A stretch of DNA of 64,000 bases from Thiohalorhabdus denitrificans. Its GTDB lineage: Bacteria; Pseudomonadota; Gammaproteobacteria; Thiohalorhabdales; Thiohalorhabdaceae. The number at the start of each line of letters is the position of its first letter. The stretch's first letter is position 1. Location of the stretch: contig NZ_LJCP01000010.1 in the NCBI RefSeq assembly GCF_001399755.1, forward strand, positions 310,001 to 374,000, written 5' to 3'. This document shows positions 33,667 to 35,514 of the stretch, one piece after another. The translations under genes were made by a program, and so were the position numbers. The notes under the pieces were generated by a model. That model saw only the letters and a list, made by a program, of their open reading frames with translations. It did no database searches and was not told the origin of the DNA.

Positions 33667-33742
33667 GCGGAAGTAGCTCAGCTGGTAGAGCACAACCTTG
33701 CCAAGGTTGGGGTCGCGAGTTCGAATCTCGTCTTCCGCTCCA
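33667..33742 (+). tRNA. glyW: tRNA-Gly (GCC)
   Basis: Acceptor arms GCGGAAG (33667-33673) and CTTCCGC (33732-33738) pair fully, discriminator T and encoded CCA follow. The anticodon GCC is at 33700-33702 in loop TTGCCAA. The T-arm has GTTCGAATC. It follows pgsA, as glyW does in E. coli. Confidence 0.97.
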
Positions 33743-33770
33743 AACACCAAGCAGGTTCCGCACCTGGAAG

Positions 33771-33797
33771 GGGAAAGCTGTTTGGCTTTCCCTTTTT
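33771..33797 (+). terminator. Terminator-like hairpin between tRNA-Gly and tRNA-Cys
   Basis: GGGAAAGC (33771-33778) pairs with GCTTTCCC (33785-33792) and is followed by TTTTTG. It would end or attenuate transcription before tRNA-Cys, which has no obvious promoter of its own. Confidence 0.7.
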
Positions 33798-33804
33798 GTT
33801 TCCC

Positions 33805-33879
33805 GGCTGGGTGGCAGAGTGGCGATGCGACGGACTGCAAATCCGTTCTACGTCGGTTCGATTCCGGCCCCAGCCTCCA
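33805..33879 (+). tRNA. cysT: tRNA-Cys (GCA)
   Basis: Acceptor arms GGCTGGG (33805-33811) and CCCAGCC (33869-33875) pair fully, with discriminator T and encoded CCA. The anticodon GCA is at 33837-33839. The T-arm has GGTTCGATTCC. It lies 62 bases after tRNA-Gly. Confidence 0.96.
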
Positions 33880-33894
33880 TATAGCGCACCTCCC

Positions 33895-33927
33895 GGAAAA
33901 GGCCGCCCCTCGAGGGCGGCCTTTTCC
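33895..33927 (+). terminator. Terminator after tRNA-Cys
   Basis: A 14-bp stem (33895-33908 with 33914-33927) with loop CTCGA ends in TTTTCC and GTTTC. Runs of A and T on opposite sides make it usable from both directions. Confidence 0.85.
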
Positions 33928-34189
33928 GTTTCTATCCCCCTTGCATCGCATACCCTGCTTCCCCCCAAGGCCGCGCCCGAATGGCAAAGCTCCGGGACGC
34001 GCCTTTTTGCTCCCCGGGGGAGGCCTCGCCCCTTACCAAAGACCGGCTTCCCGCGTGGACCCCGAACCCGTGCCGAGCGGGGAGCAAGTCCCATCCGCGG
34101 GACAGGGGACCCCCGGAAGCCCAGGCTCGCGGGGGTTCCCGGGTTGGTGGGTCTTTACGTTCTCATTTTGTTCTCGTTGGCGGGACAGG
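33928..34189. other. Intergenic stretch between the tRNA-Cys terminator and the 54-codon gene
   Basis: No gene, RNA or repeat was recognised in these 260 bases. Short open frames here lack Shine-Dalgarno sequences and recognisable composition. Confidence 0.4.
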
Positions 34190-34354
34190 CTAGAGGAGGA
34201 GCCGGAACAGACCTACGAGCAGGAAGATCCCGCCGATCAGGGCCAGGGGCAGGATCTCGCCGCGAGGCCGCTGCTGGCGGTGGAGGTTATAGGCGCTGAC
34301 CTCGAGGATGAGGCCGAAGATCAGTGCGGCGATAGCGATGATGGGGGCGTCCAC
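34190..34354 (-). CDS. Predicted 54-residue membrane protein with two helices
   Basis: A GTG at 34354 lies after AGGAGGTCCC, a near-perfect Shine-Dalgarno at good spacing, and opens a 55-codon frame ending TAG at 34190. The product begins MDAPIIAIAALIFGLILEVS, one hydrophobic helix. A short basic loop with HRQQRPRGE follows, then a second helix LPLALIGGIFLLVGLFRLLL at the C-terminus. The helix-basic loop-helix layout is that of a small inner-membrane protein with a cytoplasmic loop. I do not recognise the family. It is divergent from the 27-residue gene at 34545. Confidence 0.7.
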   Translation of the reverse strand: MDAPIIAIAALIFGLILEVSAYNLHRQQRPRGEILPLALIGGIFLLVGLFRLLL

Positions 34355-34544
34355 GGGACCTCCTTAGCTGGAATGATTGGATTGGCTCTACGCCGTACCG
34401 CCGGGGTGGCGGCATGCCACCGGTTGGCCTCCCACAAGGTGCCATAAAGGGTACGGGCTGTAAGGGGTTGCCGGAAGGCCGAAGCGATGGGAACACTGGT
34501 AGCAGGGCCCCGCCATGGGGCGCGATTCCAAAGGGAGGAAAACC
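34355..34544. promoter_or_regulatory. Shared intergenic region between the two small membrane-protein genes
   Basis: These 190 bases separate divergent genes and must hold both promoters. A 6-bp inverted repeat GGTGGC/GCCACC around GGCAT (34405-34421) is the clearest structure. TTGGCC (34424-34429) could be a -35, but no well-spaced -10 was found on either strand. Confidence 0.35.
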
Positions 34545-34628
34545 ATGGAACTTGCCGTCAACGTGCTGGCCGTGCTTTCCCTGCTGATCCTGGCCACGAT
34601 TATGTATATGACGGCGCACCCGCATTAG
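34545..34628 (+). CDS. Predicted 27-residue single-helix membrane microprotein
   Basis: ATG 34545 follows GGGAGGAAAACC, a good Shine-Dalgarno at normal spacing. The frame encodes 27 residues, beginning MELAVNVLAVLSLLILATIM and ending TAHPH before TAG. Almost the entire product is one membrane helix with a His-containing tail. A strong intrinsic terminator follows 30 bases later (34659-34686), so this is a complete short transcription unit with no other candidate gene. Such size and shape are typical of small accessory subunits of membrane complexes (for example CydX or KdpF), but no specific match is recognised. Confidence 0.65.
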   Translation: MELAVNVLAVLSLLILATIMYMTAHPH

Positions 34629-34658
34629 CCGGAAACCGCTGCGGGTACCAAAGAGGAA

Positions 34659-34686
34659 GGCCGCCCCGGAAGGGGCGGCCTTTTTT
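34659..34686 (+). terminator. Rho-independent terminator after the microprotein
   Basis: GGCCGCCCC (34659-34667) pairs with GGGGCGGCC (34672-34680) around GGAA and is followed by six T residues. Confidence 0.92.
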
Positions 34687-34720
34687 CATGGGACCGACGG
34701 TGTCTGGTCCCAGGGTAGCC

Positions 34721-34809
34721 TGGTGGCCGGGGAGGGACTCGAACCCTCACGGAGGTTACCCTCCAGCGGATTTTAAGTCCGCGGCGTCTACCAATTCCGC
34801 CACCCGGCC
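34721..34809 (-). tRNA. leuZ: tRNA-Leu (TAA)
   Basis: On the minus strand the acceptor GGCCGGG (34809-34803) pairs with CCCGGCC, then A and encoded CCA end at 34721. The anticodon TAA is at 34775-34773, and the long variable arm GAGGGTAACCTCC is typical of class II tRNA-Leu. The length is 89. E. coli leuZ has the same anticodon and follows glyW-cysT in the same direction; here it is inverted. Confidence 0.96.
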
Positions 34810-34917
34810 GGAGTATGGCGCCCAAGGACCTTTCGGACCCTAAGGGCGGGAATACTTTACCAGTTCCGACCCGGAGCAGCGACCGGCAGAGCGCGCCAAA
34901 GGGTTGCTACGGCGCGG

Positions 34918-35514
34918 TTATTGGGAGGGCTCGGTGGAGGCGCCACTGACGCGGCTATTCCAGGCCAAATAACCGATGGCCGACCCTTCAGCAAGCAGGT
35001 GGAGGCCGAGCAGAACCCCGAGGACCCAGCCAGCGGAAACCGGCAAATTGCCCAACAGGAAGGCGGCCAGGACCAGCCCAAGGATCCCGCTGCCCAGCAC
35101 CCATTGCCAGTTCGGGATCGGCCGAATGGTCAGGGAGAAGACCACCTTGGAGATGCCTTCCACCATTAGGTAGACCACGAGCAACAGGCTCATTGTGGCC
35201 AGACCCTCCCGCGGCTGCAGCAGGAAGAGCCAGCCAATCAGTACCGAAAGAACCACGGAAATGAGCTGGATCCAGAAGTGGGGGACATGCCTGGCCCCGA
35301 TCAGGCTGATCGCCTGAACCAGCCCGCTGATGATCAGGATCCAGCCGAGGATCGCCACCATGGCCACCGAAGAGAGCAGCGGATAGGCCAGGGCCAGGAG
35401 TCCTGCAACCCCCATGCACCCGCCCTGAATCAAGTGCCAGAGCCAATGCCGCCTGACGGTTTCCCGGAGGGCTTCACGCATGGCCTGGGCAGCGTCTTCC
35501 AAGGATACCGCCAT
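34918..35514 (-). CDS. HdeD-family membrane protein
   Basis: The 198-residue protein has six hydrophobic helices in three pairs, as in the HdeD/DUF308 family. A helix motif GWILIISGLVQAISL is repeated in related form (LLVVYLMVEGISKVVF and VLLGLHLLAEGSAIGYLAW), the internal repeat typical of these proteins. HdeD is an acid-stress membrane protein in E. coli; the role here is unknown. ATG 35514 follows AAAGGAAG and is preferred to an in-frame start at 35562. Confidence 0.88.
   Translation of the reverse strand: MAVSLEDAAQAMREALRETVRRHWLWHLIQGGCMGVAGLLALAYPLLSSVAMVAILGWILIISGLVQAISLIGARHVPHFWIQLISVVLSVLIGWLFLLQPREGLATMSLLLVVYLMVEGISKVVFSLTIRPIPNWQWVLGSGILGLVLAAFLLGNLPVSAGWVLGVLLGLHLLAEGSAIGYLAWNSRVSGASTEPSQ

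Follow-up and report, generated by a model that had tools for sequence, protein, structure and literature searches.

DinQ of Escherichia coli is described as a 27-aa peptide with one transmembrane segment under LexA control (PMC3567139), and TisB as a 29-aa LexA-repressed membrane toxin (PMC8309996); according to the latter account, positive residues are common but not universal at the C-terminus of type I toxins. The LexA operator of Caulobacter is listed as GTTCN7GTTC (PMC9578287). PMC4325964 presents CydX (YbgT) as a short membrane protein of one helix whose sequence varies greatly and in which few residues are conserved, with its gene in cydAB operons and a Pfam family that recognises it.

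Here we analysed a 27-codon frame within a 64,000-nt stretch of Thiohalorhabdus denitrificans DNA (the window). A sequence-only reading had taken it for a membrane microprotein gene, minimal but complete, with its own ribosome-binding site and terminator, and had suggested that the product may serve a respiratory or transport complex as an accessory subunit. Our analysis points to a well-supported gene below the usual annotation length limits. The confirmation comes from the sequence and a single ortholog, and the product is most likely a new small membrane protein that is specific to the genus and ordinary in kind.

A short hydrophobic frame with its translation signals

The frame (MELAVNVLAVLSLLILATIMYMTAHPH) lies on the plus strand at 34545–34628, running from an ATG at 34545 to a TAG stop codon at 34626–34628. 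Inspection of the sequence places a Shine–Dalgarno motif, GGAGG (34534–34538, plus strand), 6 nt before the ATG. Downstream, a strong terminator occupies 34657–34686 of the same strand, consisting of a hairpin (34657–34682) and a run of T's up to 34686 (−33.5 kcal/mol; z = −6.0 versus shuffles). The initially described elements, Shine–Dalgarno motif, ATG, mostly hydrophobic 27-codon frame and strong terminator, are therefore all present. The best 19-residue Kyte–Doolittle mean of the peptide is 2.39, its amphipathicity is low, and it contains a single E and no K or R; residues 3–22 would span the membrane. With fewer than 50 aa, one helix and a conserved coding frame, the product has the features of single-pass small membrane proteins. 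Its gene is single copy.

This combination of signals is rare in the window. Among 341 ATG-initiated frames of 20–50 aa on both strands, a window-wide count that takes in nested starts, 17 had a Shine–Dalgarno motif and six had a 19-mer hydropathy mean of at least 2.0; the 27-aa frame was the only one with both. A 37-aa version starting at an upstream ATG (34515) was rejected, as this start has no counterpart in the ortholog from genome G001 (same genus), whose frame is open for only 10 codons upstream and contains no ATG, GTG or TTG there. A simple consensus scan of 34000–35300 returned no sigma-70 promoter. The gene is presumably transcribed separately.

The terminator lies 38 nt past the 3′ end of a convergent tRNA-Leu (TAA) gene (34721–34809, minus strand) and folds on both strands, in the window's genome as well as in G001, where the hairpin is longer and differs in sequence but has the same structure. 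It may therefore serve both genes. The proposal of a complete minimal gene thus holds for the frame and its codon constraint, both kept in G001, whereas the terminator may be common to the microprotein gene and the tRNA rather than the former's own.

Coding conservation in a related species

The ortholog in G001 (L002:1501-1584) is syntenic, lying at the same place ahead of the same tRNA-Leu. It has the same start and stop, no indel and 15 of 27 identical residues (56%), and was found with an E-value of 3.1e-4 genome-wide in a single-sequence search. It is likewise devoid of K and R, and is preceded by a Shine–Dalgarno motif (GGAG) 8 nt before the ATG.

The two frames differ at 27 nucleotides over 27 codons (10/5/12 by codon position). 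The resulting rates (dN 0.35, dS 0.77; NG86, window versus G001 ORF) give a dN/dS of ∼0.46, a weak ratio from a comparison of two sequences. With the stop codon counted, synonymous and non-synonymous codons stand at 7:12 in the sense frame, the best of the six frames. Of 50,000 neutral simulations that introduced equally many changes, 0.012% reached the BLOSUM62 score of the real pair with no stop, 2.3% reached its identity and 0.5% kept the seven C-terminal residues equally well. The DNA 5′ of the frame showed no recognisable conservation in this alignment. Between the orthologs, the helix core (residues 9–20) drifts yet stays hydrophobic, while both ends of the peptide are kept, in this one pairwise comparison, as ME..V.VL and YM[ST]AHPH, the C-terminal part partly via synonymous changes. 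Taken together, this pair of sequences provides good evidence that the frame is coding. A search for purifying selection across relatives had been suggested as a check, with an unconserved frame, or DNA kept without codon bias, as the contrary outcomes; we found neither, and saw coding conservation in one species, G001.

Distribution of the gene

Among the three genomes of the order that were examined, two carry the gene. The third, G002 (82% complete), lacks it at both expected places: its locus is rearranged, pgsA and tRNA-Cys giving way to unrelated genes, and its tRNA-Leu is on another contig without the peptide. Unless the G002 copy fell into assembly gaps, the gene is not essential to the genus.

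A search of 56 genomes of relatives gave matches at E ≤ 1 in three, namely the window's own genome, G001 and G003. The G003 match (L003; E 0.073 with the single sequence, 3.7e-4 with the profile) is antisense inside a 1096-aa gene, AAA-type by eye, and was discarded as a chance match. The profile search of 369 class genomes gave matches at E ≤ 1 in 108, the best after the two orthologs being L003. We fetched the best 30 of these matches, including the two orthologs and L003, and inspected 15 of them, the remaining matches being judged by E-value only. Three minus-strand matches among the 15 (L013, L021, L031) were uninformative. Two further candidates were set aside as chance matches: L041 (Priestia), at the N-terminus of a 211-aa protein that we take to be azoreductase-like, and L010, inside a 549-aa frame. 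A DNA pattern for the C-terminus matched once in 398 phylum genomes, a sample that left out G001, and this match was the window's own genome; of its 22 matches in viral contigs, none was confirmed. Hence no further convincing relative emerged from the class profile, phylum DNA pattern, genome-contig or viral-contig searches. Searches of Pfam, NCBIfam, PADLOC, PHROGs and PDB sequences returned nothing for the peptide; neither ortholog hit a Pfam or NCBIfam family at E ≤ 10, and no Rfam family except tRNAs reached its cut-off at the locus. Judged by these searches, the gene is lineage-restricted.

Genomic neighbourhood

The 27-aa gene is surrounded by tRNAs, uvrC-pgsA, a 54-aa ORF and a DUF308 protein. 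The 54-aa ORF (34190–34354, minus strand, GTG start) is divergent from the 27-aa gene and encodes a two-helix membrane protein that is 76% identical in G001, both starts being read as M. Its minus-strand differences follow a clear coding pattern (12/5/25 by codon position; 19 synonymous versus 13 non-synonymous codons). The protein had no family match above cut-off, and its profile, run over 369 genomes, matched 11 at E ≤ 0.01, of which only the two orthologs were strong; the others (E 1.2e-4 and weaker) were inside long frames or carried stops and were set aside.

Ahead of the 54-aa gene, the order is uvrC, pgsA, tRNA-Gly, tRNA-Cys. In E. coli SCU-111, uvrC, pgsA, tRNA-Gly, tRNA-Cys and tRNA-Leu are consecutive on one strand, which places the 54-aa/27-aa pair between tRNA-Cys and an inverted tRNA-Leu here. 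From 33667 to 34809, the window keeps the E. coli order from pgsA to tRNA-Leu, except that the latter is inverted and split off by two small membrane genes. In G001, tRNA-Cys and the pair are additionally separated by a 275-aa frame that matches no Pfam family.

A LexA-type box near the gene

The stop codon of the 54-aa gene is followed, 14 nt on, by a LexA-type (SOS) box, GTTCTCATTTTGTTCTC (GTTCTC-N5-GTTCTC; 34159–34175, plus strand), in a non-coding block conserved in G001, where the box differs by one base. It resembles the direct-repeat operator listed for Caulobacter (GTTCN7GTTC; PMC9578287). The pattern GTTCTCNNNNTGTTCTC had five exact matches in three genomes, two at the peptide loci (window and G001) and three at lexA genes, compared with none for a reversed control pattern. 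Pfam LexA_DNA_bind and Peptidase_S24 domains were found in both lexA genes of G000. LexA thus very probably binds the box at 34159–34175.

Allowing one mismatch, 24 matches were obtained versus five in the control. By eye, their contexts included a recX-side site (L071), the first lexA as it occurs in G001 (L068), several transposase-like genes and, at L061 in G002, a Y-family polymerase-like gene together with the end of a rarA-like gene. Both G000 and G001 have two lexA genes with GTTCTC-N5-GTTCTC operators (L056, L060, L057, L068). Separately, GTTCTCNNTATGTTCTT sequences recur beside similar transposase-like frames (MTQPRS.LVS.SDTPWYHCVSRC) at L069, L074 and L076, near position 1501. Two of the one-mismatch boxes, L070:1501-1517 in G001 and L061:1501-1517 in G002, adjoin the 3′ end of a rarA-like gene; they have no evident target gene, and their placement is like that of the window's box.

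The box suggests an alternative, namely a membrane peptide induced in the SOS response, like TisB or DinQ. After DNA damage, a promoter at 34159–34175, otherwise repressed by LexA, would fire rightward. The resulting RNA of ∼490 nt, terminating at 34686, would run antisense to the 54-aa gene and contain the 27-aa frame close to its own 3′ end, and the peptide made from it would depolarise the membrane or remodel it. The exactness of the box, its retention in both peptide-bearing genomes and the confinement of all other exact matches to lexA genes speak for this scenario, as does the precedent of the similarly sized LexA-controlled DinQ and TisB. The peptide is also short, hydrophobic and single-helix, as SOS type I toxins are. 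However, the box lies in a convergent gap ∼370 nt from the 27-aa ATG, beyond the oppositely read 54-aa gene, and we found no convincing promoter beside it on either strand: the best window score was 5.8 (shuffled median 6.6), and in G001 the best score, 9.8, stayed short of the 95% point of shuffled sequence (10.1). The one-mismatch boxes behind rarA-like genes similarly lack an evident target. Moreover, the peptide has low amphipathicity and, in both orthologs, none of the positive residues usual in such toxins, its gene is single copy, and no antisense antitoxin RNA is known for it. We therefore consider an SOS-induced peptide unlikely. An elaborated version is distinctly doubtful: a genus-specific SOS module whose LexA-controlled transcript would run antisense through the 54-aa gene into the peptide with its conserved YM[ST]AHPH tail, DNA damage thereby silencing one small membrane protein and switching on the other. 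If the box does drive the 27-aa gene, membrane peptides induced by SOS would have evolved anew in a lineage remote from the enterics, with a different LexA operator.

Interpretation

The suggestion of the sequence-only reading that the peptide belongs to a respiratory or transport complex as an accessory subunit was, unlike the gene itself, not supported. Many small subunits are single hydrophobic helices of comparable size, among them CydX and the KdpF class. The 27-aa gene, in contrast, stands alone between two tRNAs beside a divergent 54-aa gene, outside any operon with a complex, matches no small-subunit family in Pfam, NCBIfam or PDB, and is found in only two of the three genomes of the order, being absent from the 82%-complete G002; we regard this role as rather improbable. 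That the unit is a small RNA or terminator region with an incidental frame would suit a short transcript with a strong terminator, but is very hard to reconcile with codon-level conservation, a kept start and stop, tolerated synonymous changes, the lack of conserved RNA sequence 5′ of the frame and the lack of an Rfam family over its cut-off except tRNAs.

We thus favour the reading that this is a true gene, restricted to its lineage and transcribed on its own, for a peptide that crosses the inner membrane once and whose exposed C-terminal motif docks on a membrane partner; taken as a whole, this reading has in our estimate about an even chance of being right. The helix would anchor the short motif YM[ST]AHPH in the membrane, and the motif, more than the other conserved end, would dock on the partner and modulate it. 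Docking is suggested by the conservation pattern, as a drifting hydrophobic core with kept ends fits a helix that anchors an exposed docking motif; the HPH residues may serve as a contact surface or as a metal or heme ligand.

Compared with the described systems, the peptide shares with DinQ and TisB its length, its single membrane helix and a LexA-type box near the gene, and differs from them in the missing K and R and in a box that is 370 nt off, beyond an opposing gene and with no promoter found there. Like CydX, it is short, single-helix and variable; unlike CydX, it is encoded by a lone gene without cydAB and has no Pfam or NCBIfam (YbgT_YccB) match. The proposed mechanism, docking on a membrane partner and modulating it, is that of known small membrane proteins such as CydX and AcrZ, and the likeness of the 27-aa peptide to AcrZ and other small membrane regulators is one of model, that of a membrane-embedded modulator.
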